Positions 17,650 through 55,820 of a stretch of DNA of 64,000 nt are shown here, in pieces. A model generated the notes under the pieces. It saw only the letters and a list, made by a program, of their open reading frames with translations. It had not been told where the DNA came from and did not search any database. Position numbers and translations under genes: made by a program. The stretch's first letter is position 1. The number at the start of each line of letters is the position of its first letter. This DNA is from Schizochytrium sp. TIO01 (taxonomy: Eukaryota > Sar > Bigyra > Thraustochytrida > Thraustochytriidae), in assembly GCA_004764695.1 (NCBI GenBank), contig SMSO01000005.1, forward strand, positions 1,755,501 to 1,819,500, written 5' to 3'.

Positions 17650-17688
<39 letters not shown>
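17650..17688. repeat. (CAG)13 trinucleotide repeat
   Basis: Thirteen perfect CAG units occur in sequence with no supported coding frame. A poly-Gln, poly-Ser or poly-Ala reading is possible, but flanking stops argue against a gene. An AGCT array follows at 17,734-17,752. Confidence 0.95.
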
Positions 17689-17689
<1 letters not shown>

Positions 17690-17770
17690 GATCTCCGAAT
17701 AGAAGCAAGTCATCGGCATCGGCATCGACCGGCAGCTAGCTAGCTAGCTAGCTTAGCTTCCTGCCATGCT

Positions 17771-18304
17771 TCAGGGAACGTGAGTGAGCATCGTGAGCGA
17801 TAATCCCATAGAGCTGCTGCTAGGTGGCACTGCACTTTGACTCTCGAAACCGCTCTCGAGAAGGCCAGACTTCTGCCGTACTGAAGTGCCACTTCCGCTG
17901 TCTTTTGACACCGCAACTTCTCTGCAAGTTGTGGGGCAGTGATTCCTAGTCCGTTTGTCCATGCCAGGTAGGACCTGCTTACTTACCGGCATCTCACTCT
18001 CGCTGGTGTCACGGAATAACGCTTGATGATGATGGGCAGAACTAGGCGTGCGCTGCATTTTGCAGGTTACACCTTATCAGTGTGATGTGGCGCTCAGGTA
18101 TGATTGACGTTACCTGAACGTCTGACGAAGATCGCCTGATCCAGCCGATACATTGCATTGTTGACCCCTCGACGCATCTGGTAGACTGGGAACCGTCTCC
18201 GCCGGCGCAAGCCCAGTTCTTCGAGTGGTCGCTCACGGCCGCCGTCGAAACACAGCCATGGTTCTGCTCACACGGACTTACTTTCTTTCTCGAGCTGCCC
18301 ATGA
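17771..18304 (-). CDS. Possible small two-exon gene in a GC-rich island (unrecognised)
   Basis: On the minus strand an ATG near 18,304 (MGSSRKK...) opens a Ser/Cys-rich frame to 18,114. A GTAACG...ATGCAG segment of 61 bases (18,053-18,113) could be spliced. The next open frame runs to a stop at 17,771, giving about 155 residues rich in Ser, Thr and Gln. The island is GC-richer than the surrounding DNA. Against it, the intron would be much shorter than the others in the window, the plus strand is also open for about 60 codons at 18,117-18,308, and no domain is recognised. This is a weak call and could be chance. Confidence 0.18.
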
Positions 18305-18403
18305 TCTGACTGTACGTTCCTACGTAGGTATGAAAACACGAAAGACCCTCGCAAGGTAAGCTAAGCATTACTGGCACAAGAGAGAGCTAAAAATGATTAT
18401 ATT

Positions 18404-18427
18404 ATTGATTGATTGATTGATTGATTG

Positions 18428-18468
<41 letters not shown>
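18404..18468. repeat. (TTGA)n followed by (GTT)n
   Basis: About seven TTGA units (18,404-18,430) abut about thirteen GTT units (18,431-18,468). This is a compound microsatellite. Confidence 0.95.
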
Positions 18469-18469
18469 C

Positions 18470-19427
18470 GTTATCGAAGTGTTTATTCTCCTTCTTCTCA
18501 CATGATAGTACTTTAGGTAGTGCTAACCCTGCTTATGTGAGTGCTAGTTCCTTCTGACTCTGCTTTCCTCAACGGATCGTCCGAATATCTTCTTAGCCTT
18601 AGTTGTCTCTGCTTTGGTTGAGGCCTCGGGCTCGCGTGCAGTACGACGCCCGTGATAGCTCGTCGCGACAAGGACGCAAGTCTGGCAGAAAGAGAGAGGC
18701 AGACGGACATGCCTACGCGCGGCTCTATCTTCGGGGGGAGGGGGAGGGGGAGGTAGCAGACAGCACGCAATCTAGGTGCTGAAGATTGTCATCTGTACAG
18801 GGAGAACTGCCGGATGGGCTCGTGCAGATCGTGCAGACATCCTTTGTTCACGGGCTTCACAGCGAGTCAGTCTGCCACCCAGGACGCTAAACGCCAACCC
18901 GGAGGTCAAGAACCATCAAGAGTTTAGCTGTCCGCCTACGCGAGCGCTGACAAAGCGGGGGGCGGTGTCCATGGCGCAGAAAACGCGCGTGCGCAAATTA
19001 GAATAGCAAAACCAATATACTTAGGTTTGTTCAGATCATGCAATGGCATAAAACACATTTTCAAGAAAAAAAGTTTAATATTATTATTATTTACCTGCTT
19101 TCTTATTTTGTTTTTCTGTCTCTAATATATAAAACAAATGAAGAACTTTTAAAAATACACCTGTCCGATATAGATTTTTAGATTAAAAATTAAAGCATTT
19201 TAAAAATTTATTATCCATCTATATAATTAATAACTTTAATATGGTACCTAGATAAGAAAGAATCGCCGTGCGAATTCTGTGTGTTTTTATTTGTCTTGGT
19301 TATTTTCCTAGTTTCTGACTTTTCTTTTGCAAGTCATCACGTATTTATCATGTTCATCCATTTGGATTGTTGTGATGCTTCGAGTTTGCCACCTCGCTTT
19401 CAGTACCACTTCCGGTCAGTGAGTGAG

Positions 19428-19465
<38 letters not shown>

Positions 19466-22300: not shown

Positions 22301-25300
22301 AAAGAGGCCGGAGTATTTCTCCGTTGTTGCGTACAAGCCAGAATTATATGTCTGCTACTTATCAAGCTGTTATTTTCCATCAATGTTTATCTATAACTTT
22401 TTCTTTTCTTAGTGTTGCTGCTGCTGATGAAAATAAGTTTTTATTAGTGGTAAAATTGGTCAATCAGCTGTGTGTAAGGACACCAAACAGCATGTTTTTT
22501 AAATTGAATGTTAAGATTATAACGGCGTCTGCCGATACTGTAGCTATCCAGTCTTCATCCCGTGCAAGTACCATTGTCTCGTGCTTAGGAGGGAGACGGG
22601 GATTGCTCTTATGTTTTCGGTTCTGGTCCGCCACCACGACTGATCAAAAGGCGAAAAGCTTTTTCAAAGTAGAATATATATAATGTTCGGTGCAAAGAGT
22701 TCCATTGATATGAAAATTTGAGCGATTTGAGCAAAAGAAACCGTTTGCTCTGGGTTTTATGATGAAACCGGGTTTGTTCACATGTTGAATCGTGTGTTTC
22801 AACAAAGCCATTTTCACTTCTACCTCTTCTTCTTCTTTTTCTTCTGCATTCATATACATATATGTATATATTAATATATTGGTTTTCCAAAAAAAATTAA
22901 AAAAAAAGCGTTTTCAATGAATATGCAGTAAGAATTTAGTCTTCCACTCTTAGGCTGTTTTAGTAAAATTTTCGTTCTTGAAGTTTGCCTCTTTTCTTTT
23001 CTTTTCTTTTCTTTTCTGTTTTAATAATCGTAAACGACCTTCTCAATTTTGCCTTTCCCTCGCCCAGATGAGAATCCCTCTTACAAACCAGCCAAGTTCG
23101 GGAAAGGCCAACTGCCATGCAGTTTGTATGCACAACGTGTGGTACTAGAAACCAATGGCAATTCATTTACGTTATTTTCGGAAACTTTCAAATGGCCCAA
23201 CGCGCAAGCATTGTCGCGCAGACACATAGTGCACCGGGACTTGAATGCTAGAAAACACGGCCGGCGTTTTCTGTGTTTCTGTTTTATAATCCATTGATCT
23301 TGCCGTTGTGTATAGTTTCCATCCGCTTATGTAAATAGGTTCTGTCGGCGATAGGTGCAAATTGAAGTTTGCGACCCAAATTGTTCATTAAAAAGACGCG
23401 CCTCTGAAGAGTCATGCAAGGCGTCGTTGTATACTTTAACCAAGCAAGTACGTACGAGGAATCAGTCGGAATCCTAATGCAATTCTATTTCTAATAACAA
23501 AGCTCTCAATAACTTGAATGAGAGGTGGCGATTTACAGTTTGGCCCTAGATTCATTGAACAGCAAATAAATAGAATGATCAATTTATGAATTTGATTTTG
23601 TTCTACATTGAGGTTTGGGCGTTCGTACCAAGTTATGCCAGCGATACTTGCAACCTATACTTTAAAAAACTATAAATAAATTTGCAACGAATGATTGGTT
23701 TGGTTTCATTTTTACCCACGCTAAAAGAGATTTTACTCTGACTAGTCAGAGTGGTACTATGGTCTTTTTGTAGAGTTGCTCGTACCCTACTTGAGTTTGC
23801 AGTGCTCGGGTAGTTACTTTCTAGATAGTACTAAGGATTGTTGAATTTACAAAAGTTTGCAGCGCGAGAGAAAAGGATTACCTCAAATCGTCTGAGCATC
23901 ATTGTCATTATACATCACGCTGCTCGCGCACCGTTGTTCACTTTCTGCCTTGTGGAAAACAATTCATTTATTTTTGAAGATCCAAGCCCTCGCAGCTCTC
24001 AATCTTGCCTCAGTCTGTCTACTGTTGTCTCCTACCCTACATAGGTACTACCTACCTATTAGTGCTGAAACTCCAACTTCATCATCGAATAGATACATGG
24101 AAGATTTCACAGAATCGTAAGGAATCGAAGGTTTAATTTTCAAGTCTCAGATTTTCTACACAACATCAACAGCACTAGTAGTAATATGATTGATTATTAT
24201 GCTATGTTTACACATACTTTGTTTTAATTCAAAGGAAAATGTTTTTATTTATTCATTTCACCTACTATTCGTTTTTATTCAAAACAATTATTATAAATAA
24301 TAAAGTGTGGAGCGTTGCTGAGTTTGTGGCTGTCAATGATCACATACCAGACATTCGCGATACCTGCTGAAGCTCTTCAGTCAGGCATTTGACCACGGCA
24401 GAATTTCAGGCCTTCAGACTCGGGCCATTCAGTACATCCAGAGTGGCTCTTCCAGCATTTCTAACAATTTGACTTAGCCAGCAGCAGCTTCTTACGATCC
24501 ACCAGCGAAGCATGCATCCCGAATTAATGACAAGCACCACCCAAAATAACAACTAAACTTGAATAGAAGAACCACAAATGAATTATACAGCTAGTTCACC
24601 ATAGTAGTTAGGTACCTACCTACCTACCTACCTACCTCATGGTCACGGTGAGCCACGACGATCCCTCTCTGGATTGAGGTATGCTTTCTGCGTATTTGTT
24701 GGCGTTGCTTGTACTAGCAAGACAGCTAGTAGCTAGCTAGCTAGCTATTCATGGGGAGTGTTCTGATTCTCTCCAGGCTTGTGGAGGTTCTTGATTCGGC
24801 TGGTTGGCTGGCTGGCTGGCTGCCCTACTAGGTATTATAACTTGCTTGGCCTGGGTTATGTATCTGTATCTCCCCCGTTAGCTTCTTTATAAGGAAATAA
24901 GAAAAGAGAACAACCAGGTCACGTTAGTATAGCATTGCTCTGGTGTCGCTGTTCCTAGAAACAGAGAAAGAATGAAAGAAATAGGAAAGTTTTGCTTTTG
25001 CTTCTTCGTTTGAACGAAACCATTGACTATGAAATAACATACCGACACGCGCCGATCATCGGCGTTGCGTTGCTTTGCTTTAGCTTTGACTTTTGTTTTC
25101 GCTTTCCTTTGCTTTTTGGATTGCTTTGGCTTTGGCTTTATCTGGAGTTGCTAGGACTATGCAGAAAGAAGGCTTTGGGGTCCTCAGCAATTGCTTTTAT
25201 AGAAGCAGCAGTGTGTCTATCTACCGCCGTGCTTGTATTTTGGTACACAGGGATCTATTTGTATATGTATCCTTGGCCGCCTGTTCTTCACAACGGTTTG

Positions 25301-28300
25301 GGAAAATGATAATGGATTGCGCATTTCGTGACGACAGTGGGTGGCCCATCAGGGCGGTATAAAGGCGCAGGTGTACCATGTCGAAACATCTATCTCTGGC
25401 GGGCAGTGGCGATGCGAAGATCTTAGCGGCGAAAGCGCAAGAGGAACTAAGTTTGGTTGACAAATTCAACTCCACCACCACGAATGATGATGATCTTTGC
25501 TGTGTCGCCCATAGTCGCCATGGATTCACTGCTGGAATCACACTAATGAACAAATGCGCAAAGTCGTCATGCTAGAAGCACAGAAGCCTTAGCTAACGAA
25601 CTTTAAACGAGTCATATATTTCCAGACAGCAAGTTCAACTTATACCTAAACGCTACCGCTAATTGTCAAACAATAGACTGATGGGAATGACAAGTCAATT
25701 TCCATAACATGACGAACTTGATCTGGTCATCTTTGTTATATCGTTGCTGTTATCATTGGTTGATCGTAATTTCCGACGATATTACTATTCTATTATTTTT
25801 TATTTATTTGAAATTAGAAATACCTTTGGTAGACCCTATCATGGTAGTACAATTAAGCTAATTGCCGGTTTCCCCCCCCTTTAAAAAAATAAAATAAGGG
25901 AAGCAACAACACAAGTTTTTCTCATCTTCTATCTTTACTTTAGCCTTATCTCATTTTAGGTAGCATCAGTGATCATGATGCTTTTAAAAAAATTAAAAAA
26001 TTAAAAACGTTTTGAATTTCTTCCTTCATTTCTTTTAACTAGAATAAATGAAGGAGTCTTTTCGTCAGCGTTTATCCCTTTTTTATTCCCTTTTTATTTA
26101 AACCCAAACTCAAGCGATATACACGTATATATATATACACATATTTCTTTTAATGACCACTGGCAATAAGTGTGATTCTCTTCTACCTAGGTAGGTCACA
26201 GAAAAGAGAAAGCGGAAAGGAAGTCAAAGAAAAGTGGCGAGTCTGTGAGTTGCACTCTTGGAAACTAATCCCACAGCGAAGTGTCAGCAGTAGCACTAGT
26301 TACCAGGCATATGGAGGTAGGCAGTAGTAGCGTTTGCTTAGTAAAAAGTCTGTCTCTTTTGAAGAATTTTGAACAAGAGCTTTCTTAGGAGACAGCACCT
26401 CTCTGAGCGAATGATAGAAAATATGCATGCCTCGGGTTGAGTCTAGTAAACAAAACACGCTCAACGATTGCGCGTATCCGCATGTAAGGAAGTCTAATGC
26501 GCTCGCAACTTGAGAGCCCTTATACAAAGAGTAATCAAGCTAGCTGCGGAGTTACTGATAAGCAACCAGACGATGAGCCGTCGTTGGGTTGACCTGGAGC
26601 CTCCCTCTTTGACTGATGTCAAGTCTTCTGTTGGCATGTTGTCTCTGGGTTGTTGCGGACACTCGGTGCTAGGAGCTCCGTTTCCGACAATGGTGATTTT
26701 GGCCAGGTCTTTGGCGGTCTGCTACCTCGAAAGTAAAAATGCTCAAAGCGTCAGTAGTACCTACTTGCCTTGATTCAGGCGCTATCCCAAATCGCTGCGG
26801 CATTGTGTTCCTGAGAGAACGCGTGATAAAGGGCTGCCAGAAAACTCACAGCGCAGATCTAGGTTGTATTATTATTGACGTGCTTGTTCTTCAACGATGC
26901 GTGCAAACTTCTGAGAGGCTAGCCGATTAAGGATTTCACTGCATTCGCATTGGTCCCTTTTCCTCCGTACTCCAGGCTTTCTTCATCTTCCAAGGAGACA
27001 TCTTGCAGGTCTTTCAAAGTTGAGGGGTAAGATACTCTACCTATTACCGTGTCCAGTGGAACGTTGTAGTAGCAACTCGCTGGAATTTCAATCGGGTGGG
27101 CATTCTAAGATATATTTGCTTCCCAGTGGCAATACGTGTGATGAAAGATGGCATTAAAAAACAAAAAAGAGCATCTACAATCTGTTCAAATATTCAACTT
27201 TGTTTACAGTTCATGTCGCAAGCACTCGTCGTCAAGTCGTTCACGTGCCTACAAAATAGTAAACTTTATCTTTGTAGCTATAATATTCATAGAATTACTA
27301 GTGGAAACCTTGAATTCTCATGGTATAGATTTACTCATTACGAGCCAGGTTGCTCTACATGCAAATGAATTTGGTTTTTTATTTTTACTTTTCAAGTATG
27401 ACTTACGAGCAGAGTATTTTATGCAGATATGTGACTATGCATGCATTGATGTCTACAAAATAACTCGCCAGCCACCGCATGGCTCCGGCTTTACCGCCAG
27501 TGCTCTTCAGTATATCCAATGTAAGTAAGCGCAACGATCGTTTGAGAGTTTTTCAGAATACATTCATCAAATGAAAACTTTGAAATAGTACAAAGGGCGG
27601 CTTGTAGTAGTTGCAGTAGTCCATGCTTATCTATGTTTTCAGCGATCTTACAGAAGTTTATTTTATGTATACATGGTCTTTCTTTTCAAAGTCTTCTTTC
27701 TCCTTCTTTTTACTATTATTATTTTTGTTTGTTTTTAATAAAGTTGGGTAGACAGATTGATGATGTGTTGACCCAGATGCCCAGGTTTAGGGAATTATAA
27801 TCGCATCAATAAACAGAAGCATAATATTGTATGCTGCGACCCATGGATGTAACACCCGTTTCTTCTTTTAAAACAAGCTAACCTATCATTGGCAAGCAGA
27901 GAAACATCTTATATTTAGTAACAGATAGCTAGATACCTAGCAGAGGTAGGTAACAAAGAGCACAATGTTTCATTTCCATACCGGTTAAGAAATAGAGGAG
28001 TCAAGTGAGGTGTAGTTATCGCTGTCAATCTACCGAGCATATTATCAGATCTATGTTGTTAATTAAAAAACGATTCGACCTTTTTACAGAATTTCAAGCA
28101 TACTTGTCAGAGATTAATTTGTTGAGGTCCTAGACACCAGAGCCCACGCTCACACTTCGTCAATAAGAACAAACGCATCAAAAGCATAATATATTTTTTA
28201 TATAGCTTCGCTAATTTTTATCCCATCATCAGAACCAATAACCTAGGTACCTAGTACTACCTAGTTTATCTCATTCTCTGAAAAAAACAGAACAAAAAAG

Positions 28301-28900
28301 ACTAGTATAGTGTAGTATCTAGGAAACCCACCATCTCCGTATTCACAAAGGCCATCAAGTCTGCAGAGCCCAGTCAATCAACTTTATGGTGAGTCGTCGC
28401 CATCCCAGTCTCCTATAGATAAACTAGTAGAGCAACAAAAGCAAAGTCAGGGCTTCGAGTTCTTCAAGAAACGAAGTGAACAAGACCCACTTTCACCCCT
28501 CAGAGACAACTCCTAAATGTGTGTTTGTCAAAAACTTGGGTTACAACTCCAGCTAATACTAAAACACCCATCAAACAAGGCGTGATGATGGTGATATATC
28601 TACTTTTGCCCACCTGCGTATAGTTTGGCCAGTTAGTATGCGATAGGTGCCTAAGCTGTTTGGGCCTTTCCGATGAACTGTGATGTAATGAGAGGGGAAC
28701 CCGTTCGCGGAGTTTTAAGCATCCATTAGCCTGTTTATCTATTCCTGCTTAAATAGAACAAGCAGGCAACCTCGAGGGTAGAACCCTCTCTAGAGCCAGC
28801 AGAGGCGACGAACCTTTGGGCTTGGAAGCTCCTCGTGACCCAGCCATCTTCATAGTAGGATGACTCAGGCTAGGGCCGCTCAAGATAGGTAGATACGCTA
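22300..28900. other. Intergenic AT-rich DNA, no gene seen
   Basis: The longest open frame (27,148-27,528, plus, 126 codons) starts with ATG, but its composition matches the background and it has no recognisable domain. Simple repeats include CTAC at 24,611-24,637, CTAG at 24,730-24,747, GGCT at 24,799-24,822 and a short TA run near 26,130. A second perfect copy of the CTAGGTACCTAG palindrome is at 28,243-28,254. Confidence 0.55.
24611..24637. repeat. (CTAC)n tetranucleotide array
   Basis: Six to seven ACCT/CTAC units. It belongs to a TAGG/CCTA family of short arrays scattered through the intergenic DNA of this window. Confidence 0.9.
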
Positions 28901-28946
28901 TCTATCTATCTACCTATGCCTTCTATGCCTACCTACCTACCTACCA
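28895..28946. repeat. (ATCT)n and (CTAC)n short arrays
   Basis: A run of four ATCT units is followed after a short spacer by about five CTAC units. It belongs to the same CCTA-type repeat family as the array at 24.6 kb. Confidence 0.8.
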
Positions 28947-28949
28947 ATT

Positions 28950-31800
28950 CGACAGAACTCGAGGACAAACGATCCCCAATTGTCGTGAACCTCGACCGTC
29001 GCGGTTCGCAATGCTTGGTCGCTGCTCTAGCCAGCTACTAAATAAATGGCAGTTGATGAAGGCCAACAATGAATGCCTCTATTCCATGATACGTACCTAC
29101 CTACCCAGAAAACCGGGTAGGAAGGAAGGAAACACGAAAAGCGAAGAAAACAAGCCCATATATATATTGATATATGTAAAGGTGGGCAAAGACGAATTTA
29201 AAAAGAGTTTATAGGAGTGGCAGATTGAAGAAAATTTGAAGATGGGTGGACCTATGAATTCCCTTGAGCAGTAAGTGCACAGCGTCTGCTCGAGATCAAG
29301 TAAACGGCAGTTGAATAGCCCACTAGGAATGCTTTTGTCCGGGTCGCGGTCAGCGCGTTTGTAACTTTTGATCATTGCAAATGTACCTGCCAAAGTTCTT
29401 GGGTCACTCAATTCCTATGTGAGATAGAGCGATGTGCAAACGGAGTTTCATCTCGGTCCTTCCAATCTCTCGCTATATCTCGACAATTTCGCTAGGATTA
29501 ATACATGGGCATCAGTCTTCAGCTTTATACGATCAGGAAAATTGGCGAGGTTTTTCATATTATAGGAATTCTTGTTTTGCTCTCATTAGTTGTGTCCAAG
29601 TATTTAGTTTCTCTTACATTTATTCAGTATGTCCAGGTAAAAGGAAAAAGGTAGGTAGGCGGCCACTAACTTGAACTCCTAGTGATCAGCACATGCAATA
29701 CCAAGAACAAGCGAAAGAAACTTGGCAGAAACTGGAACCTTACCCTAAATCGAGCTACGACTTGAAAATGCCGTGTACCACAACTTCTGAAACAGCTATC
29801 ACCTGACTGCCAAGAATTCTCGAACTCCGGTGGTGGTCATAGGTATTGTAGTCTTCGTCTCGATAGGCTGCTTTATGTATACCGCAAAAGGCACTTCGTA
29901 CTCTTCTTGGACTTGAAACATGTATCATTCTTCATGGTTTTCTGCTTCATTGACTTTACAAGTCTTGATTTGCATCGAAGAACATGCCCTTTTGTGAAAG
30001 TTTTTTGGGGCTTCGTTTGGGAACGCGTTGAAGCTTTCTACTGCTTAGAGGTTCTTCAAATATAAAGAAAAAGTAAGTTATCCATGCCGCTAATTCTTTG
30101 CCACTCCGAAGAAGAAATATCGTATAACTCGATAAACATGACTAACTTTTCACCCAAAGCATATAGACCGATCGCTCGTTTTCACTTATTTATGACTACG
30201 AGCATGAGCAGCCAGCCTTCTTCTTTCCAAGCTATGAATTGAAGAGTTTTCTCTTACAGCTCTATTACTGCTTATCTTGAAATTCTGCTCTTCACTCCCA
30301 TCCATCCAACCTGCGCCGTAGATGACGCTTCGAGATCCCCTCGTGACGCACGATCGTGACACAGCCTTTCATCACGGCACTCTAAGCAACCATAGACTCC
30401 AATGCATCTCCATTCTCTTATTGTTGCCATTAGCTCTGGTCGATTTTGCCATTCATAGTCAGAAAAGGTAGTATCCATACAGTTGAGGTTGCAGCGCTTG
30501 AACATACCTACTTTGTGGCACTCCAACGAATGAGTTTATACTTGAGAATGAGATTTATTTTATTGAAAAAAACGATTGAAAGAATGAATGGATGTTTAAG
30601 TGTTTCACAGGCGCAAACGAGACGCGAGAATTCGGCCGCGTCATTGCCTCAAGATCGACGACACAGCCGCGTTCGCGTCGTCTTCAAAGGAGCCGCAGGA
30701 ATGGTCCGGGACCTAGTGTTACTGAACTTTCTTGTGACTTGAATTACATTCGTTTTGAGCCATTCTTCTGTTTCCAAGCAAGTTCGTTCCAGTCTCAAAC
30801 TAGAATCTCAGTGAAGCCCTGTGGAAAGGCTGTCTTTTCAGGTACTTTTAGTCTTTCTCTAAGTTAGGTTGCTGACACCATTGGTGAATAAATAGCACAG
30901 TGTTCCCAGTGCAGATTTGCAAAGTTTTGTTTCGAAACTTGCATTAAAAAATAGACAGATATGTCTGATTAATGAAAAGTTGTATTCACCCTTCATATGT
31001 AATTGTTTCTATTTAAAATAATTAACTTTTAATTAAAAAATAAGTAAACCTAAAAAATAAATACGTAGCTAGCGAAGAGAAAGGATGAGAGCGCCTAGAA
31101 GTAGTAGTTAGTTGGTGTATCCGTCCGCCATGGTGTAGAATAATGATCAACGATGTCTGCTATATCACTGCCTGTCTCCTGTGAGAGTGGGCATCCAATG
31201 AGTAGCGCATGTTCATGTCACCGTAAGCACTCCTCTGAAGGAATCTGCAAATCGTCTGTCCCACCAATCTACGCACGCATGGATTCTATTCTCAGTGAGA
31301 TGCCCTCGATTGGAATTGTCTTGGCTTGAGATTTCAATCAAGATAAGCAAAATGATTGGTGGCCCGTTGATTGACTGGTCGAGCGGAGGGCCTGAAGTCT
31401 GATGACGAAAATGGCTTGGAAAAGAACATCAAGTGCACGCCATCTTATGTGCTAAAACAAAGTTTTGGCCAGAAGAAGAAACTTCAAGGATGGATGAGCC
31501 CTACTCTCGTAAGCACCTGTTAAGAATTTGAGTTGAGGGTTTGCTTGGAAAGACTCGCTGTTGTTCATAACAAATTAGCAGCGTAAACAGCTACCAAAGC
31601 GTGGGTCTGCTTGTCGAAAGGCGAAAAGGCGGAAAGGCAGTCAGGTAAGTTGGCGAAATCTTAGAGAGAAGAGAGTGGGTTATGAAATGAAAATTCTCTG
31701 CGCATGTCAAGTAGAAAACTCATCTCCTCTACGATAAGATCTCCAGAGCTCAAGACGATGTCGTTGGATATGCATCGCAATGCCTGAGCGTTGGCCTGCC
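28950..31800. other. Intergenic DNA, no gene seen
   Basis: Only short open frames of background composition are present. A slightly GC-richer patch at about 30,610-30,730 is open in two plus-strand frames, but without start or domain. Confidence 0.5.
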
Positions 31801-31804
31801 CTGA

Positions 31805-32032
31805 TTAAACCATCATATCCAAAAGAACCAAGGCTATATTGTGCGCAAAGCCTGCGGGACGTTCACGACAGTTTGCCGCAAGAGAGGTATCGTTTGGATC
31901 TTCTGAGATACCTGCGTCTTGAACTTCCTTGACAACACCTCGCTTGACACGCTCGGAGTGCGTACAACACTTTCCGTCGTCGTCCAATCCATTAAAACAG
32001 AGTTCAAAGCAGCAAACCTCATCAGGCCACAT
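31805..32032 (-). CDS. Possible small ORF, 75 residues, unrecognised
   Basis: The frame starts MWPDEVCCFELCFNGL and is rich in Asp, Glu, Lys and Cys, a composition unlike the AT-rich flanks. It is open for 11 more codons upstream of the ATG. An overlapping frame starting at 32,040 is open over the same stretch, which lowers confidence. A W-x-D-E pattern near the start recalls the first acidic motif of Tc1/mariner transposases, but this is too little to call one. It could be a transposon relic or chance. Confidence 0.2.
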   Translation of the reverse strand: MWPDEVCCFELCFNGLDDDGKCCTHSERVKRGVVKEVQDAGISEDPNDTSLAANCRERPAGFAHNIALVLLDMMV

Positions 32033-32461
32033 AACGCCACAATTGGGTAGGTTACCTCTGATTCACGTTGCAGTATTGCGCAAGAGTGATTAGGGGCCGC
32101 ATATGAATAATCCCGAAGCGAGTGAGTGCTCCAACTGACTTTGTGATGAGCTCTGTATAGCTTGCACTAATCAAGCTCCGAAAGTACGACATCCTCAAGC
32201 GATTTAAATGCTTCCTCATAAACCCTTTTCTTCAATCTATTTATCTTCGAAATTAGTAAAAGAAATATTTTTAATTTTCTCTTAAAGTCTGCTAGTCTAT
32301 GATTATGGGAAAACTGAGATAAAACAAACAAAGTATGGTACTCATGAGAAAGCGATAACCGTCGTGCCCAGGTTTGTGATTCCGGATTCTTCGAAACAAA
32401 GCCCCCATTGCAAAGAGGGTGACGAAGCATCAGGCAAAGGACTTGAGAACTAGTCGCAGCA

Positions 32462-32722
32462 ATGAACGCAGAGCTAAGAGCACGCACAGAGGAGCTCCAG
32501 GGCGCCGTGGAGCGGCTTGGTTCACTGCTTCAGGAAACCTCATCGCGCATGGACAGAGCAGGCTCTGCGTTTAATTGCGCAGTCGATCTCGGCGCACTTG
32601 CCGCCCGTCTTGCGGAACAGCAAGGCTGTGTAAACGCAGAACATACAATAGCATCGCAGATGAAACCACCAGCTCAGGGACTCGCCCCAGGCAGCAACCA
32701 AAGCACCGGGGAAAACCAATAA
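32462..32722 (+). CDS. Small coiled-coil protein, 86 residues (hypothetical)
   Basis: An ATG in a purine-rich context opens 86 codons to TAA at 32,720-32,722. The segment is clearly GC-richer than its surroundings. Residues 1-54 form one predicted amphipathic helix with hydrophobic residues in heptad spacing: Leu5, Leu12, Val16, Leu19, Leu23, Met30, Ala33, Phe37 and Ala40. The C-terminal third is polar and disordered (PPAQGLAPGSNQSTGENQ). There is no signal peptide or membrane segment. Small helical subunits of multi-protein assemblies look like this, but I recognise no family. It lies isolated in a gene-poor region. An extra 5' or 3' exon cannot be excluded. Confidence 0.45.
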   Translation: MNAELRARTEELQGAVERLGSLLQETSSRMDRAGSAFNCAVDLGALAARLAEQQGCVNAEHTIASQMKPPAQGLAPGSNQSTGENQ

Positions 32723-35700
32723 CGACTTGGCAAAACTATCTCTTTCGAGAGGCAATATTATCATCATGTTTTACGAATCCATCGTCTTCTATGTAACTTA
32801 GCAGGTCGCCGATGGATAGATCTCATGATGGTGATGAAAGTACGAAACGAGAATCTTTGCAACACCGAGTTGTGTGATCATATATACCATAATATTCTGC
32901 CGAAAAGTAATTAATTGCATTCTATAAAGGCCCAAAAATCGAAGGCCAGAGCTGGAACGACCTCCAGTGCCAGGCTCAAAAATATTGCTAGTTGGTGGCA
33001 GTGACTAGTCTCTTAGTGCTTTAAAATTTCAACTAGATCTTGGAGGTCGAAAGCTTCAAGAGCAATAAAGGTGGAATGAAACGGGAGTCCTTTTACTCAT
33101 CTACACTCGTCGCGACTCGTGAACATGATTGCAATGTCATGGCAAAGATCCAGGAGACCTTGCCTCCCCGAATTACAACTTGGCGTGCTAGGATCAGCCA
33201 TCGCCACATCAAATCACTGTTCCTACCCCCCTGTCGCAACTTAAAGAACGACACCTCTCCGTGAAAAGGTGAAAAGGTGAGAGTGGGCCAGAGTCTTTCT
33301 TTCGCGCGAGAGGGTTAACTATAGAAACCGTCTTGTGCAAATGCAGTGATTAAATTTCCAGGTCCATAGTACAGATAATCCACGTTTGCTGTCTTTCTAA
33401 AAACAGCATGAGCAATTGGTGAAACTGCTTATACTCCGCTCTCCGTTCCCATCTTGTTTTACGTATCATTGATAACTCTTGGAGACGAAAATGGCACTAC
33501 TTCTTCGTGACCCATCGCCGTTAGATTTTAATTACAAAGCTTCAATCTAACTATATCCAAGAAGAGGACCCCAATCTAATCCTTAATAAGTTTCTCATCA
33601 TGACTTTCTATGGGAAGCAGAACTCTTGAAAAAGATGCCCTGCGCAAGACGCCAAACACGGCATTGCAAAGGTGTACTTGCTAGCACTTCAAACATGCCT
33701 GCCTATAACTTGCGCTCCCTGGAAAACTCTGACACGAGAAAATCTCGTTCAGTCCTATCACACTTCTCTTTTTCTTCTGATTCCCATCTTTCATATCTGG
33801 CCCTGGGGAACTCGCAACAATCAAGAATTCAACCTAATCAAAAAACATTCTAGAAAGTACGGCGTTCCGAGCACCGATATAGATAGGTAGGGCATGTCTA
33901 CGAAGTTACAAACTGCAGAGGCTCGTTTGTTCGCTGAGGCCAAGGCCACACGGACACCAACATTGATTGGGCTGCACTTGCGGTAGAATTGGCATTGTTG
34001 ATCCCAACTGTTTAGGGTAAGACAAGGACGCTTCTGAACTTTTTTGCGGATATTGGCTTGTGAACCTACTACTGTCTGGAAAGGGGATCTTAGAATTTGA
34101 GCGTGAGGGGGTGCTGTCCAGAGCAGAGACTTTCACGCTTCGTGAAGTTGGTTCACGTGAGGTGCTGAAGTGCTCTGGCAAAGAAAGTAGACGCACCTGG
34201 TAAATACGCCGCAAATGATCAACTCATTTTTGCGGAAACTTTAAAAAGATCCTATAGACAGGGGTACTGGAAACGACTGTGTACCTATTAGTCAAGGCAC
34301 TGACCAGGAGAAAGGGTTTTCGGGCACAATCTGTGACTGATGAGAGTCATGGCCAGTAGAGACTTTACGGTACTCCAGGCTACAGTCAAAGAAGAAATGT
34401 GAAACCGTGTGTAAACCACTAAAGCACCTACCATAAGAGAAAGTGATGCCAATCGACTTTACGCAATTGGAAATTGTAGGTACCTTCAAATTGTACATAG
34501 ATGGCTGACTACCTGTAAAAAAAATATCAATCATAACCGTACTTGGACAATTTATGCCCCATATTCCTGTAACATACTTTTGTTTTTCACTTAATGTAAT
34601 CTTGAGTTCTTTGCTCAAGCCCCAAAGCTCAGGCTAAGCGTTTACAATTCTGAAAATCCAGTGACTGCTGTGCATACTCACTAATCGTGATATACACCTT
34701 TCTTTCAAGGTTTAGAACTCAAGACGGAATAAATCACTCCTTAGTCAGACAGAAAGTAATGAATGTAACCTTTTAGCTTGGTAAAAAACCCGGGCCAAAA
34801 CAATCAATTGGGCCATCATTTCTTTTCGAGTTGGAGTAATACTAGAACTAAGGACCTTAGTATCACAACGCCAAAGATGAGATAATTATAGGACAGAAAA
34901 ATAACAACCAAGACTGAGACAGGACTCAAGATTCAGGCCTCATCAACACTCTTTCACATGTGCCACAGCATTCAAATAAAAGATGCCGCCATGGTTTATT
35001 GGAATTTCATGAATTGCGGTTATTCACTGCTGAATCGGAGGATTCGTTTCTTCAGGATGAAGCTAGTAGGGGAGAGGTAAACCCCTAAATAAACCAAATG
35101 ATGCATGCTTCTGGACCAACCAATTGTTGTCCAGATGTGTAAAAAAACGCCAGCGACAGACTTCCTAGCAAGAATGAAATTAAAGACAAGAGAAGAACAA
35201 CCTACTAGTATTTATGAAACCAATAAAATCAAAAAAATCATCAAAGTGGAGGAGAATACATTTAAATTCTGTTATTTGTTTTGTTTCTTTAAATAAAACA
35301 TTTCGAAAAGCATATTTCAAAATTAATGATAAGCCACAACATCGTGCTGTTTAGGATATACTGTCAACAAGCTACCCACCCGAGACGAACTTCGAAGGGC
35401 CACATGCCTATGTATGCGCATACAAATGTGATTGTTGCGTAGCTATTTGGAACTACTTTTATCATGAAATTTAAAGAAAGAGGTGAACCATGAATTTTGT
35501 TTGACCTATGAGAAAGACTACCAAACGTTGGAATCAAGCTATAGCAGAAACTTTTATAAATAGCTCCCATACATTGCGCAGTTCAGCCGTGCAGGCCAAC
35601 ATAATCAAAATCTAAATTTAAACTCAATGACACTTGATTGAGAAACTCCGGATCGTTTTTTCTGTGATCTTGGAACCTAAGATTAAAGTCGAGCGACGTA

Positions 35701-35889
35701 CCTCCTCCACATAAACCAATAAATTGAAAAACAATATGCATTTATTCATGCATACCACTGCAAAAACTCGAGAATTTTATCCATACGAAATGAAATATAA
35801 AGTAAAAAACAAAGGTGAAGAAGAGATAATGACGTGTGCAAAACGTGAATCATCACGGCATGTCGCAAATCATAGCTTCAGCTTCTGAT
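32723..35889. other. Intergenic DNA, 3' flank of glycosyltransferase gene
   Basis: Open frames are short and of background composition. The one at 34,292-34,618 (minus) begins at a non-ATG codon and shows no domain. No repeat array stands out. The final few hundred bases should include the 3' UTR of the glycosyltransferase gene. Confidence 0.55.
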
Positions 35890-48463: not shown

Positions 48464-49852
48464 GAAGTTCTTACTTATCCAATCTAAGCCACAGGTGAAG
48501 ATACTTATACCTTTGGACGAAATACGCCAGAGGGCCCAGGCTACATCGTGAATTCTGCGTGTGCCTCATGCCAATGACTCTAGCACAACCACTTCTGTTG
48601 TTGCCCCTTGTTCTTTGACTCCTATCTCCTATATTCAATCTATTAATGCTGCAGATATTGTGCAGAGCTAAGCAAATGTCATCAATCTATTAACCTTCAG
48701 GAACCTTGTCTTTAGTTGTAATTTTCGAGCAAAACCATACCCTCATAGTTTGGCCTTACCACCACAAGAACTAACAACAGATCGTACATGTTGTGAGGGC
48801 GGTTTCCGCCTGCTCAAGGTGCTCCAGTCCTAGTGGAACTCTGAGGTCCTCAGGTCGATTGAAACTCGATGGCGCACCCTATTCTGCCTCCGCATCCTAA
48901 GCTTGCAAATTATAATATCAACAGTGCCCTAAACAGTATGAACGATATCTGTTGTGCCGATATACTCCACTAGTTGGACCTTTTATTTGGGTAACAAAAC
49001 AGACGGTCACTCATAGTTAGTGGCAACGCAATGATTGGCAAGCAGTACCTAGCAAGGTACATTTTCAATTTGCCCAAATGTAACATTTTGTGCTCCGCGG
49101 GAACGCCTTGAGACTCAGTCGTGAAGCACTCACCCCTGGAATCGTCTCGAACAGGAGCCCTTTCATGTGACTCAGACCGAGCCCGGGCTAGCAGTGAGCT
49201 ACTTCTGCACCCTGATGAACCTCTCCTGAGCCCAAGGTCCTTCTCCAACGCATTGCCTCGAGCTCTTCATACCCACCAGCAGAATAAATGCAAATGTAAA
49301 CGAACCAAAGAAAGTAACGTGTCTTACGATGGCATGGCGTCTTTGAGTGTAATTCCATTTTCTGCGGACTCGAGCCCAGCTCCTTGTGGTTTTGTTTCTT
49401 AAACCTAGCTCAAGTCTGACTCGTGCACGATCTTCATCGCCATGGTCTCCTTAGTCATGGCGATCCTCGACATGTGATCTATCACATGCCTAAGTGGTCA
49501 ACTCTGAGGTTCCACCTTCTTCCTTGAAGCTCTGCGGGTTTTCCCTGCGTTCCCTTTGAATAAGTTTCCTCAGAGGGGCATTTTGTGCGTAAAAGCTGCT
49601 TGATGAAAAGAATATGATATGTGTAGTATGGACAGTGGCGCAAGAGGAGATCAGCGACGACAAGAATCGTTATGTACACCTTTGGATGGACTTCGTTTAC
49701 TGCGAATTTGGCGTTAAATTGGTTCTTTCCGCGCGAAGTTTGACGAGTAAAGAAGATTGGGATATCCAAAACCAAAACGAGAAATCCAACGCACCGACGA
49801 CTGAGTAGAGCCTGCTGGGGAAGAGAGAAAGAGAACTACAACGACGAAGAAG
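48464..49852. other. Intergenic region between the two metallothionein genes
   Basis: It holds the 3' UTR of the first gene and the promoter of the second. Two open frames on the plus strand (49,121-49,402, non-ATG start; 49,614-49,808, ATG start, 64 codons) have semi-plausible composition but no domain. The second could be an upstream reading frame in the leader of the next gene. A double inverted repeat lies at 49,436-49,488. Confidence 0.45.
49436..49488. promoter_or_regulatory. Two adjacent perfect inverted repeats upstream of the anchored metallothionein gene
   Basis: ATCGCCATG (49,436-49,444) pairs with CATGGCGAT (49,456-49,464) around an 11-base loop. Six bases further, CATGTGAT (49,471-49,478) pairs with ATCACATG (49,481-49,488) around 2 bases. 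Both are perfect. They lie 365-417 bases before the ATG. They could be regulator sites, or RNA hairpins if transcribed. Confidence 0.65.
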
Positions 49853-50392
49853 ATGACCTGCAAGTGCACCGACTGTGATTGTGGCGATAACTGCAAGTGC
49901 TGCGAGGTAAGTTAGTTACGAAGACGCTGAGAGGGGCTTCTGTTAAAGAAATGTCTTTATATGGAGATGTACCAAGTATCCAAGTTTTAGCTCGAGGAAA
50001 GGTCTGTTGAACTCGAAATGTTCACGCGTACCTGGCAGATCCTGACGAAATTCAATTGAAACAGGATCTTCTGGATGATTTGGTGTCAGCAAAAGCCCTC
50101 GTGAGAGCGTCCAAGATGTTTTTATTTTTGCAGACAAACTCATTAAAAATTGCTATGCTCGAACAAATAATCGATAACACAGTGCTGCAGCGGCGGCAAG
50201 TGCACGTGCCCCCCGGGTAAGTGTAAGTGCTGCTCATCCTCGTCGAAAAAATCTGGTGGATCGTGCTGCAGTAGCGGCGCATCTGGTGACATGAAGGCTC
50301 GTGTCAAGGATAACCTCCCTGCGATTGCCATGATTCTTGGCGCTGGTCTCCTCGTAGGTTTCGCGCTCGGCAAGTCTTCGGCATCCAAGTAA
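49853..50392 (+). CDS. Tail-anchored metallothionein-like protein, 87 residues, two exons
   Basis: Exon 1 is 49,853-49,906 and exon 2 is 50,183-50,392. The 276-base intron has GAG|GTAAGT and AACACAG|TGC boundaries, phase 0. The product starts MTCKCTDCDCGDNCKCCE and has 16 Cys in its first 47 residues (3, 5, 8, 10, 14, 16, 17, 19, 20, 25, 27, 32, 34, 35, 46, 47), with C-x-C and C-C pairs as in metallothioneins. A Ser/Gly/Lys linker and a short charged stretch (DMKARVKDN) follow. Residues 63-81 (LPAIAMILGAGLLVGFALG) are one hydrophobic segment with a G-x3-G-x3-G zipper, then the tail KSSASK. No signal peptide is present, so the Cys-rich part should face the cytosol, with the protein inserted by its C-terminus; the target membrane is unknown. 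The anchor also resembles the C-terminal segment of bacterial ElaB/YqjD proteins. Metal storage at a membrane is inferred. Confidence 0.82.
49907..50182 (+). other. Intron of the anchored metallothionein gene
   Basis: A 276-base intron, GTAAGTTAG... to ...GATAACACAG. Its removal places two Cys-rich blocks in frame, which would be most unlikely by chance. Confidence 0.85.
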
Positions 50393-50710: not shown

Positions 50711-53700
50711 TTAAGCTGGGCGAACTATCGAAACAGGAGAACTGTGATCGCTGGCAGCACTCATTCCAACCGCATTCTCTGCTACTACACAAAACGTATA
50801 TGGGACATCATCTTCCATGAAAAACTCCTCCCTAGGTAAGAGGTCTTTGGAAAGCTCTTCGCTTGTAGCGGGCAGAAATCCAGGTAGAACATTAACAAAA
50901 TATGGTCCAGTTGGGGCTACTTGTGCTAATGTTGCGCACGTACCCTTTGACTCACCATTTTGAAACGCATTGACATGGAAGCGTACAACAGGGTAACCAC
51001 CATCAAAGCTAGGGGGATTCCAGTGTAAACGAACTGCACGGAAGTCTGCACCAAGTACCTTCGGTGCATCAACAGCATTCGGTACTTGTGCTGGCAATGT
51101 TTGAATTGGTGGGCATGGTGTACTTCGTAAGCCCTTACCAATTTCATTTTCCGCCAGTACTGCGAACTCGTATACAGTTGCCGGTTCAAGTTTTTTGACA
51201 ACAAATTGCTGCCTACTTGCATTCACTGTATCCACAAGGATGAAAGGACCTAGCTGTCGAGACCTTATGAAGATATGGTATTCAAATACAGCACTGCCAA
51301 AGGTTTTCAAAGGTGGATCCCATGAAACATTGAGGGTAGAAATACTTGGATCAGAAGCGCGCACGTTGATTGGCTCCCCTGGAGGCCCGCGCTTGACAGT
51401 AAATGGCCGGCTGGCTGGGGAAAAGTCTCCAATGCCTCGATCATTCACTGCACAAACTTGAAATCTGTAAGACTCACCGGACTCAAGCCCTTCAATCGAC
51501 GCGTGTGTAACTTTGCCCCCCACTTTATTAGTTGCCAACGAACTTCCTAGAATTTCACGTCGTCTTCGCCATGCCATTGTTGATTGAGACAACAATGGAT
51601 ATATTTCCTTTTGGTAGATGTTAACATCATAGTCCACGATTGCTTTCATCCATGCCACAAGATGCTGAGAAATTGCGAGCTGAAGGCTGCTCGTGTCTTT
51701 TCCTAGAGCCTCTACCATTGCTACAACATGTTCAGGAAGTGGCAAAAACGCAGGGCGTAAGGTCTGTCCAAGTTCAGCATCACGAGTGGCGAGACGAAAA
51801 CTCCTTACACGTCCTAAAAATTGTTCAGGGTGTCTCATTGCGGATGTTACCTCGCTGAGTTGAGGTAGGGACTTTTGCATAGAAATTTGTGCATTCTGTC
51901 TCTTTTCTGCCTTGAGTCTGTCTTCTTGTGATACTGGTGATTCGGATGATAAGTCTTCCAATGACTTGTCTCCCGGGCTTGAATTGGTCGACTCACAAGC
52001 GCTAGTGTTGTGATCATCGTCATCCATAACATGCATCAGTAAGACCAAAGCGACCCGAAGAACATGAAAGTCTTGGTCAGATAATTTTCCCGCCATTTTA
52101 AACTCCACAACTTGCTTTGTATTAAAGTGCGACATGAGTTCATCAATCTTTTGTGTAGCTTCTGCGACTGCAGTATCTTTGCGCAATATGAGCCCAGCTT
52201 TGTCTGCAAAGCTCTCTTCCTTATCTTCGCAGTCTAACATTTCGTCCACGATGGTGGTAAGCGCGTATCGAATAATAAAAGCTGTCAACGCGCACCCGTT
52301 ATCCCGAGGTGCTTGCCATGCAATAGTTAAGCTTGTTAGAGCGCTACCTTGCAACCATGGTGCTTCTACCATTGGATCTGGTGCGCAAGTTTCAGTCACT
52401 GCAGAAATTGATGGCGCAGACCAGACTCCTCGCCCAAGTTTATTCTCTGCAACAATGGAAAACTGATATGCCATACCAGGCTCCAACCCAGTTACTCGAG
52501 CACTCATTTCAAGCAATTGATCAGCTGTTATACCCTTTCGAGAAGCAGCAGAACCATTGGCCGACAATGCCACCTCAACTAAGACACGACGTTGGTTCGT
52601 CAGGTTTTCCTCTTCCTTAAGTTTTCGACGGACGCGTAACGTCTCTTTAGCACCCAGATGCCGATTCTCATGCAGCCATGTTTCGAGCTTTTCTCGTCGA
52701 GCGGCAGCAGCAGCAAGTTCCCTCGACGCGTTGGCTTTGGCATCTGCCCAAAGTAAAACAATTTCCTCGGAATCTTCAAAATTTCGCGCACGCACACCAC
52801 CTCGTGCACGAATTATAAATTTATTAATATGCGCTCCCATGGAGTCTGGTGCCAACCATGTGATGTCCATTGTTGTCGTAGTAAGGCCACTAATAATTGG
52901 AGCATCAATGCGTCCTGGAACAGCTGCAAGGCATCTCCTTGTAGCTGATGGTAAACTCCACGGCCCTTGCCCATGCTTGCTAATTGCTGCAACACAATAT
53001 TCGTACGTACTACCAGGATGAAGAGCCGTCATGCGACGCTTGAATGTAGTCAGATTCTCTTTCAAATCAAGCTCAACCTTAGCTACTTCGTCGAATTCCC
53101 CAATCTCATTTTCACGTTGCTTAATGACAAAGGCCACCACGGAACTTCCATTTTGCACAGGCATTTCCCATCTCAAAGTCATTTCTGTTGGCTGCGTCTC
53201 TTCGACAAGTGGCGGTGGAGGAGCAAAAGGTAATCCTGAGCCTAATTTCCATGTTCGTATAGTGCCATCGTAGCTGCTTGTGCGAAGATAGTTACATACA
53301 TCAGCCTGTTCTGGGTTGTTTTGGGCTTTGTCATTAGCAAAGCGCCCTCCGTGCAGAAAAGTAAGGTCAACCACAGAGTCTTCATGCCCTCGTAAAGTTT
53401 GAAAAGCACATTGTCCTTCAATATCCCAGATCGTTATTGTTGAGTCCGCACAGCAAGTGACTAAAACATCGATAGGACTATCCTGAAAATCACTAACCAC
53501 CCCTAATGCACAGCTCGTCACCCAGTCTTTGCTTTTGAAGCGACAAAGTAAACGGCCTTCCGGGAATGTCCATACTTTTGCAAAAGTGTCTGAACCACAC
53601 GATGCAGCTAAAGAGTTTCCTTCATTTAGCGTCACAACATTGATCCAATCTCCGTGAGACGGTGGACCATCGCGACCCAAATAATGAGGTTGATGCTCGT

Positions 53701-55123
53701 GAAAGATGCGGATCGCGCCACCGTGACAGTGTGCAAAATCTGGTGTGTCCTCCATGGCTTGCTCCAAAGCATAGATTCTGGTATTCTCCAAGGCATCAAT
53801 AGTTGAATTGTGCTCTTTCCCAGCCTCGTTCTTTAGTTTATATTGCTTTTTGTGATTGGATTTTTTGTACAATGATGCCTGGAATTCTGCCGTACGTAAG
53901 AGATCATCTTCGGCAAGCTCAACTCGCCTCACAAGATCACAACCATCGCAGGCATGATCATACCATTGATGCTCATGTTGCTGTTCAATACTTGCTTTTT
54001 TGTCTGTTGCTGGATACGTGGCATCCCAAAGGCGAATGCGGGGATCTGATGTGTCTCCAGCACTGAGGAGATATTGCCCGTCGCTAGAAATTACGCAAGA
54101 TGTCACACCTCCATGAGTGCCTTTGTATGTATGCAATAGTTCCCCGGTTTCTAATGACCACTTCTTGATGGTTCCATCAGCAGACCATGAGAACAACCAG
54201 TCCCCATGATTGAGTAAGCCATAGACAATATCTGCATGATCCGGTGGTGTGTCTTCGATAGGTGGAAGTTTAGGCAGCTCTGCTTGCCAGTCATCGTCCA
54301 GCTTCTTTTCTGTTCTTGTATTGTCCGAAGACTCTGGTGGGGTTGGAGCACCGATCTGTGCTTTGAATAGCTTTTTCCAATGGTCCCACCCACAACGTAT
54401 ATAACCATCACCGCAGGCATACAAAATTATCCAGCCAAGCTTCTTGTGCAAGCTACCAGTGCGCAATAAACATGATGACAAGACAGGCACCTCGTCAGGC
54501 GCTCGTCCGACAACAAAAATACTTCCTGTACTACGACGGTTACTCTTTAACGAGTAAACAATGAGACGAACAGCTCCATCACCACACGCTGCGAGAACAA
54601 CATCGCGCTTGATAGGTTCAGTTCCTGTCATTACGGGTGGGTCTCCAGCGAGAAGATCAACGGGAACTCCTTTTAGATCTTCCTCATTTAGCCAGATAAA
54701 CTGGCGCACAATAGAACCCACGGTAAATGTTTCAAAGAGTTCGGTACTATCACGCCATTTATACATTGTTGCTGTTCTATGAAATCGAAAGAGTAGCCCA
54801 TCTTCGCGAAGTAATGCAAGCTGCTTTTCTTCTTCTTGTGCGTTATAAGCTCTTTCACGAAGCTCACTTTGTCTTGCTTCCTGAAGAATTTTGCTTGTCC
54901 GGTGTTGGACCTCCAGAGCCATGGAGCGCGCATCCTCACGAGCCATTGAATTTCGCTCATCTTGTTGATTAAGCATGGCCGATCTCTCGAGTGCCCGCTG
55001 CTCCTCGGCACCTGTTCGACCGGCATCTCTTCGCTGCTTTCGAGCAGCTGCTTTTTTCGCCTTCCGCCTGGCACGGCGTGCTTCGCGAGCCTCATAGATC
55101 GAAACCGCAATATCACGTAGCAT
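50711..55123 (-). CDS. Large WD40-repeat / fibronectin type III protein
   Basis: A 1,470-residue intronless gene starting at ATG 55123-55121. Residues 1-105 are highly charged (Arg/Lys/Glu/Ala) and likely a long helix. Residues about 110-630 carry degenerate WD40 repeats, the clearest being DWLFSWSADGTIKKWSLETGELL (about 308-330), VLVTCCADSTITIWDIEGQC (553-572) and YLRTSSYDGTIRTWKLGSG (612-630). From 635 to the C-terminus come five FN3-type domains (about 635-735, 738-910, 915-1245, 1248-1345, 1350-1470), each with the late tyrosine-corner pattern such as TYEYCVAAISKHGQGPWS. Domain 2 carries an insert of about 75-95 residues with a helical, charged stretch. Domain 3 carries an insert of about 250 residues. 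No signal peptide or membrane segment is visible, so it is probably intracellular. A cytoskeletal or ciliary scaffold role would fit the architecture but is inference. Confidence 0.85.
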   Translation of the reverse strand: MLRDIAVSIYEAREARRARRKAKKAAARKQRRDAGRTGAEEQRALERSAMLNQQDERNSMAREDARSMALEVQHRTSKILQEARQSELRERAYNAQEEEKQLALLREDGLLFRFHRTATMYKWRDSTELFETFTVGSIVRQFIWLNEEDLKGVPVDLLAGDPPVMTGTEPIKRDVVLAACGDGAVRLIVYSLKSNRRSTGSIFVVGRAPDEVPVLSSCLLRTGSLHKKLGWIILYACGDGYIRCGWDHWKKLFKAQIGAPTPPESSDNTRTEKKLDDDWQAELPKLPPIEDTPPDHADIVYGLLNHGDWLFSWSADGTIKKWSLETGELLHTYKGTHGGVTSCVISSDGQYLLSAGDTSDPRIRLWDATYPATDKKASIEQQHEHQWYDHACDGCDLVRRVELAEDDLLRTAEFQASLYKKSNHKKQYKLKNEAGKEHNSTIDALENTRIYALEQAMEDTPDFAHCHGGAIRIFHEHQPHYLGRDGPPSHGDWINVVTLNEGNSLAASCGSDTFAKVWTFPEGRLLCRFKSKDWVTSCALGVVSDFQDSPIDVLVTCCADSTITIWDIEGQCAFQTLRGHEDSVVDLTFLHGGRFANDKAQNNPEQADVCNYLRTSSYDGTIRTWKLGSGLPFAPPPPLVEETQPTEMTLRWEMPVQNGSSVVAFVIKQRENEIGEFDEVAKVELDLKENLTTFKRRMTALHPGSTYEYCVAAISKHGQGPWSLPSATRRCLAAVPGRIDAPIISGLTTTTMDITWLAPDSMGAHINKFIIRARGGVRARNFEDSEEIVLLWADAKANASRELAAAAARREKLETWLHENRHLGAKETLRVRRKLKEEENLTNQRRVLVEVALSANGSAASRKGITADQLLEMSARVTGLEPGMAYQFSIVAENKLGRGVWSAPSISAVTETCAPDPMVEAPWLQGSALTSLTIAWQAPRDNGCALTAFIIRYALTTIVDEMLDCEDKEESFADKAGLILRKDTAVAEATQKIDELMSHFNTKQVVEFKMAGKLSDQDFHVLRVALVLLMHVMDDDDHNTSACESTNSSPGDKSLEDLSSESPVSQEDRLKAEKRQNAQISMQKSLPQLSEVTSAMRHPEQFLGRVRSFRLATRDAELGQTLRPAFLPLPEHVVAMVEALGKDTSSLQLAISQHLVAWMKAIVDYDVNIYQKEIYPLLSQSTMAWRRRREILGSSLATNKVGGKVTHASIEGLESGESYRFQVCAVNDRGIGDFSPASRPFTVKRGPPGEPINVRASDPSISTLNVSWDPPLKTFGSAVFEYHIFIRSRQLGPFILVDTVNASRQQFVVKKLEPATVYEFAVLAENEIGKGLRSTPCPPIQTLPAQVPNAVDAPKVLGADFRAVRLHWNPPSFDGGYPVVRFHVNAFQNGESKGTCATLAQVAPTGPYFVNVLPGFLPATSEELSKDLLPREEFFMEDDVPYTFCVVAENAVGMSAASDHSSPVSIVRPA

Positions 55124-55743
55124 ATTGCCATCTGACCAATTCCATTTCTATTTACGGGAACAGTTTGTTGTTGTCGTGGGATAGGTGCTCGCCAAACATG
55201 ACCAGAGTTGGTTGTTTTGTGCTTGTCCGTTAATGAGGTAAGGTCATCGATGACCTCATTGACTCCATCCCAAGATATTCATTCTCGTCAGAGATTATGA
55301 AATAGAGTTTTGCAGAGGATAGTATGCAAAATAAATAGGTCAAGATCTCAAAACAACAAAAGAATAAAATATATTTGAAAGCCACGAGTTGCAGGGCCTA
55401 TAAAGCAGTTCCAGTAAGCTATCTGCTATTGATTGATTCTTCATTAATTTTATTTCAAACTTTGTTTTCTAATTAGTTTTAATTTTCAGGTTGATACATT
55501 ATTTTCAATTAAGAAAATGTGTGCTACAATACATGATAATTTCATTGCAATGTGAGATTCTTGGGCACCATCTACCTGAAATTATGACTGAGCAACGGCA
55601 GTCTAAGTTTGTCTAGTCTTTATAATTAGAATAATGATAAATAGTTTTCATGCTGGAAGGCTTTAAAAAAAAATTAAAACCAGTAACCTATCTATATATA
55701 CGCCTTGGAGAGGCCATGATTACAACCAAGGTAATGAGCTTGT
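55124..55743. other. WD40/FN3 gene promoter region and AT-rich spacer
   Basis: It includes a palindromic cluster at 55,232-55,260. The rest is AT-rich with no coding frame. Confidence 0.6.
55232..55260. promoter_or_regulatory. Palindromic regulator-like site upstream of WD40/FN3 gene
   Basis: A perfect 14-base palindrome GGTCATCGATGACC (55,242-55,255) overlaps a second inverted repeat, AATGAGGT (55,232-55,239) with ACCTCATT (55,253-55,260). It lies 109-137 bases before the ATG. TGACCTCA differs by one base from the CRE/bZIP site. Function is inferred. Confidence 0.5.
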
Positions 55744-55816
55744 GCTCGGATAGCTCAGTTGGTAGAGTGACAGTTTAGTAAGCTGTTGGTCCCGAGTTCG
55801 ACTCTCGGTTCGAGCA
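55744..55816 (+). tRNA. tRNA-Thr (anticodon AGT)
   Basis: A complete 73-base cloverleaf. The acceptor stem GCTCGGA/TTCGAGC has one G-U pair. The D arm is GCTC-AGTTGGTA-GAGT. The anticodon stem is ACAGT/GCTGT with loop TTAGTAA, so positions 34-36 are AGT, reading ACU threonine codons (A34 normally becomes inosine). The variable loop is TGGTC, the T arm CCGAG-TTCGACT-CTCGG, and the discriminator base A. There is no intron. Internal A and B boxes are intact (TAGCTCAGTTGG and GAGTTCGACTC). A T6 run follows. Confidence 0.95.
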
Positions 55817-55820
55817 TTTA

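Follow-up and report, generated by a model that had tools for sequence, protein, structure and literature searches.

A candidate single-copy gene predicted to encode a small tail-anchored metallothionein-like protein in the genome of Schizochytrium sp. TIO01

The window we analyzed, by which we mean the whole stretch of 64,000 nucleotides, sits on contig C4 of an assembly of 37 contigs, and a short two-exon gene candidate lies on its plus strand. When the gene model of the first-pass annotation (ATG at 49853, exons at 49853-49906 and 50183-50392) was recomputed from the sequence, the result was identical. By direct reading an in-frame TGA at 49802-49804 lies 51 nt 5′ of the ATG, and exon 1 closes with TGC GAG at 49906, immediately followed by GTAAGT, so placed that the junction to exon 2 falls in phase 0 and the predicted spliced product is 87 aa long. 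A gene with a first exon of 54 nt is one that gene finders could readily overlook. The features to which we refer are as follows:

49853-49906, plus strand: exon 1, 54 nt, with the start codon, 18 codons and 7 Cys
49907-50182, plus strand: proposed intron of 276 nt, GTAAGT...AACACAG
50042-50046, plus strand: CTGAC (A at 50045), the one YTRAC-like sequence that the proposed intron contains
50065-50100, plus strand: possible 12-codon cassette exon DLLDDLVSAKAL, with AAACAG before it and GTGAGA after it (donor 50101)
50119-50133, plus strand: tract TTTTTATTTTTGCAG of a rival acceptor at 50134, use of which would give 46 aa with 7 Cys and no anchor
50183-50392, plus strand: exon 2, 69 codons and TAA (50390-50392), with 9 Cys, linker, hydrophobic segment and tail
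50315-50371, plus strand: codons of the hydrophobic segment LPAIAMILGAGLLVGFALG, residues 63-81, mean Kyte-Doolittle value 2.15
50372-50389, plus strand: C-terminal tail KSSASK, six residues with a net charge of +2

The N-terminal part of the predicted product is dominated by cysteine. Our recount agrees with the 16 cysteines in CxC and CC spacing that had been claimed for the first 47 residues (positions 3, 5, 8, 10, 14, 16, 17, 19, 20, 25, 27, 32, 34, 35, 46 and 47), which amounts to 34% of that region (16/47); the region also contains seven lysines, seven serines and six glycines. Histidine, phenylalanine, tryptophan and tyrosine are all absent from residues 1-47. Exon 1 contributes seven cysteines in the pattern CxC-x2-CxC-x3-CxC-C and exon 2 another seven as CC-x4-CxC-x4-CxC-C, followed by a separate CC pair. 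The metallothionein-type motifs CxC, CXCC and CCXCC all occur in this domain, and they are among the nine metallothionein motifs given in the excerpted text of a review of microalgae (PMC7216689). The two seven-Cys modules resemble one another (KCT..C....CKCC); we rejected an internal repeat between the exon modules as the likeness is within the range of shuffles (p 0.07). Seen against what characterizes the metallothionein superfamily, the candidate has the high cysteine content in CxC/CC motifs and the lack of aromatic residues in its Cys domain (residues 1-47) but departs from a soluble protein made up entirely of metal-binding domain, in that it carries the hydrophobic segment at 63-81.

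Residues 48-87 are devoid of cysteine, and no acidic residue follows position 61. A linker of Ser/Gly/Lys composition leads from the Cys domain to the segment. Averaged over 19 residues, hydrophobicity is highest at 63-81, and the top five windows are all at 62-66. These results bear out the linker, single 19-residue segment and six-residue tail described in the first-pass annotation, whose transmembrane range of residues 60-84 contains the segment but is slightly loose relative to the computed window. Nothing resembling a signal peptide was seen in the sequence, again as had been claimed. The segment is the only one of its kind in the product and lies close to the C terminus, as in tail-anchored proteins. 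Can its orientation be read from the flanking charges? With +2 on the tail and +1 on the 15 residues N-terminal to the segment, topology is not fixed by charge. The G-x3-G-x3-G zipper noted earlier is present, but the oligomerizing role proposed for it is indistinguishable from an effect of composition: 4.4% of shuffles of the 19 residues also carry the motif, which makes it weak evidence. DUF6520 was considered as a family for the tail and rejected (E 0.17-0.28, under the cut-off).

Searches for families and relatives returned little. The predicted protein had no match above the cut-off in Pfam, NCBIfam, PHROGs, PADLOC or the PDB sequences, and none of the curated metallothionein models of Pfam and NCBIfam matched at E <= 10. 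The missing Pfam match says little, because a copper metallothionein sequence of the Neurospora crassa type has no Pfam match either. A search of the candidate's own 64-Mb genome gave one match to exon 1 and no paralogue, and the gene is single-copy there. Among viral and prokaryotic contigs, which are poor collections in which to seek relatives of a eukaryotic gene, 11 and 188 pattern matches, respectively, yielded none that was confirmed. A PF00131 match on contig C30 (E 0.056, under the cut-off) was rejected as a CTG-repeat frame, and a search with PF12749 found nothing but carries no weight, its control likewise being positive in 0 of 14 genomes; both searches are blind to the candidate gene itself and so would miss similar genes. 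Nine exact genome matches to CKCCxCC (one for a control pattern) were all translated and, on visual inspection, set aside as being either repetitive or no more than short frames. One, L009, has CCKCCKCCKCKCKC in a 124-aa open frame (1372-1746, minus strand) and is probably a short TGCAAG-type repeat. Another, L006, has a frame at 1477-1620 of 47 residues lacking Met, with the Cys-rich stretches GCWCSCCCCKCCKCC and SCCCWSCCSCCW, and is repeat-like.

How does the candidate compare with known systems? The seven-Cys copper metallothionein of the Neurospora crassa type combines three CxC pairs with one lone Cys, an arrangement to which the exon 1 and exon 2 patterns given above bear a likeness in an unaligned comparison; the candidate differs in its spacing, its two modules with an additional CC pair and its anchor. 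DUF883/ElaB-YqjD proteins are bacterial membrane proteins with a short, basic, Gly-rich C-terminal membrane segment and are not known to have a Cys domain. Their segment has a look similar to that of the candidate, and their Pfam model was not matched by the candidate at E <= 10.

The nearest described kind of protein is CYSTM. The earlier statement that a tail anchor is known from none of the described families was too strong, as it overlooked these small, Cys-rich, tail-anchored proteins, which the available portion of one article links to metal stress (PMC10217909). According to the same portion, the membrane helix of CYSTM proteins itself carries their five to six cysteines, an acidic residue comes next, and the N-terminal part is a variable linker; the group includes yeast Mnc1/YBR056W-A and YDR034W-B (PMC10217909), and Digitaria CDT1 is an example tied to metal stress or tolerance in an extract of a further article (PMC3808331). 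The candidate shares with these proteins its small size, its richness in cysteine and a predicted C-terminal membrane helix acting as a tail anchor. Unlike theirs, its helix is free of cysteine and has no acidic residue after it, and its cysteines lie in a separate, metallothionein-like N-terminal domain. We rejected membership of CYSTM on the grounds that the helix lacks Cys and the Pfam model went unmatched. A further parallel is artificial: the engineered yeast myrGFP-MT is a metallothionein anchored on the cytosolic face of a membrane, and cells bearing it accumulate metal, as described in the accessible part of Ruta et al. (2017; PMC5451056). The candidate would likewise be a metallothionein on the cytosolic membrane face, although it has a C-terminal helix in place of N-terminal myristoylation and GFP. 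Our searches of the open-licence literature brought up, in listings and excerpts, no naturally occurring metallothionein that bears a membrane helix, and the microalgal review, with metallothionein entries for several stramenopiles, does not contain the stem 'labyrinthul' (PMC7216689).

A question that precedes any interpretation is whether the anatomy described above exceeds chance. Within exon 2, a single unspliced frame carries nine cysteines over 29 residues together with the hydrophobic segment, and the pairing of these features is therefore independent of the splice. When exon 2 was dinucleotide-shuffled 20,000 times, the resulting 60,000 forward frames included 2 with at least nine cysteines in 29 residues, 286 with a hydrophobic window of at least 2.15 and none with both. 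Across the six frames of the window, with CCC runs left out, there are two regions with at least eight cysteines in 29 residues, of which the candidate alone has a hydrophobic window within 69 codons downstream. Codon usage gives the candidate frame no backing: with a score for which the long ORFs of the window supplied 4,772 training codons, and in which rare Cys codons penalize the candidate frame, the exon 2 frame reached -0.1 and two antisense frames 5.1 and 6.5, and a score restricted to synonymous choices was near zero (0.5 over the 69 codons of exon 2). The 1 kb scanned for a metal-response element contained one TGCRCNC (at 49206) against a window rate of 0.875 per kb, and thus gave no signal.

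To judge the junction 49906/50183 we used as references introns from this genome's Ras and ubiquitin-conjugating genes, placed by joining exon matches. Exon pairs came from 12 loci, of which L042 and L051, representing one gene, were dropped for want of a model (L051 had a low-scoring model in an earlier placement and none in the final one); the remaining 10 loci correspond to seven distinct introns, with the donor of L036/L053 uncertain. GTAAGT is the commonest donor in this set (5/7) and is also that of the candidate. A YTRAC branch-point motif lies within 60 nt of the acceptor in all seven, with an expectation by chance of about 14% per intron, and in one it is just 9 nt away. The acceptor at 50183 has no YTRAC within 60 nt, the nearest approximations being CTCAT (A at -41) and ATAAC (A at -6), and the acceptor at 50134 has none within that distance either. 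Between -20 and -4, pyrimidines make up a fraction of 0.35 for 50183 and 0.65 for 50134, relative to 0.47-0.76 in the placed introns. The proposed junction, in phase and with a typical donor, is plausible, but judged by splice signals alone it is not the most convincing one. Among the acceptors that were tried in combination with exon 1, only 50183 yielded 16 cysteines; those at 50201, 50222, 50228, 50297 and 50309 keep the segment with fewer cysteines, and the cassette exon would keep both features. This survey makes an anchored product likely, as far as can be predicted from the DNA.

What, then, does the locus encode? The explanation to which we would assign a probability of about 0.58 is that this is a real single-copy gene of two (or three) exons for a small, tail-anchored, metallothionein-like protein that may act as a local metal buffer. 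This is in essence the reading of the first-pass annotation, whose anatomy fits our results, whereas its assertions about the lack of a described family and about the zipper were not supported. An alternative that we regard as unlikely is that the main product is the soluble 46-aa seven-Cys peptide made via 50134, with the anchored form minor or regulated and acceptor choice serving as a switch. It draws on the better pyrimidine tract, TTTTTATTTTTGCAG, before 50134 and on retention of the seven-Cys module of exon 1; however, 50134 lacks a properly spaced upstream yTnAy, and the nine cysteines and the segment of exon 2, hard to attribute to chance, would be left unused.

Rather improbable, to our minds, is a three-exon gene in which the 36-nt cassette at 50065-50100 inserts DLLDDLVSAKAL between the Cys modules to give 99 aa with 16 cysteines and the anchor. 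Support for such an arrangement can be found in the position of the sole YTRAC of the intron (CTGAC), 20 nt upstream of the 50065 acceptor, and in the GTGAGA that comes next, in phase. Yet its second intron relies on the same weak acceptor at 50183 and, at 82 nt, would be shorter than the shortest placed intron (92 nt), and the arrangement itself surfaced by enumeration as one of eight three-exon models. The cassette form would refine the tail-anchored metallothionein-like reading, not overturn it. We consider it very unlikely that the product, though Cys-rich and membrane-anchored, has some role other than metal buffering, such as redox sensing or service as an Fe-S or thiol scaffold: cysteine content by itself is no proof of metal binding, but the density of CxC and CC, the 34% Cys and the lack of any aromatic residue give the look of a metallothionein. 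Chance open frames in non-coding DNA are scarcely credible, for although the codon score is neutral, the locus has a start codon, a donor in phase and a further exon rich in cysteine, and the two features of exon 2 coincided in 0 of 60,000 shuffled frames.

If the locus does encode a tail-anchored metallothionein-like protein, how might it work? A hydrophobic segment that ends six residues from the C terminus does not emerge from the ribosome until termination has taken place, and would thus have to be inserted post-translationally, like that of a tail-anchored protein. Its position would place the Cys domain in the cytosol, where the cysteines may hold Cu(I) or Zn(II)/Cd(II) in thiolate clusters, with each exon probably supplying one seven-Cys module alongside the additional CC pair. 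A chelator fixed to the membrane in this manner could be a local buffer, capturing metal as it enters the cytosol or at the surface of an organelle. As to which membrane, our guess would be the mitochondrial outer membrane or the ER, with which the modest hydrophobicity and the +2 tail are compatible. A bolder proposal, and one we hold to be a long shot, is that a natural tail-anchored metallothionein with two seven-Cys modules exists here in soluble and membrane-held forms set by the choice between acceptors 50134 and 50183.

Metallothioneins are usually viewed as soluble sponges, and an anchored one, if real, would localize metal buffering near transporters or an organelle. Within the open-licence literature searched, membrane-fixed metallothioneins have so far been solely artificial, and the candidate would be a natural version and, if confirmed, a natural anchored scaffold for bioremediation.

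Several observations concern the surroundings of the candidate gene. Convergent with it on the minus strand is an ORF of 1478 aa, stop to stop (window 50714-55147), with WD40 repeats and fibronectin type III matches, and a tRNA-Thr (AGT) at 55743-55817 is the sole tRNA called in the window. GC content is lower (0.376-0.409) at 20001-28000, and from 16986 to 35853 there are no ORFs of 130 aa or more. Elsewhere on the same contig (C4:611495-614707, in L054), ten tandem ACP-domain matches spaced about 330 bases apart lie in one 2172-aa frame, which we take to resemble the layout of a thraustochytrid PUFA synthase.
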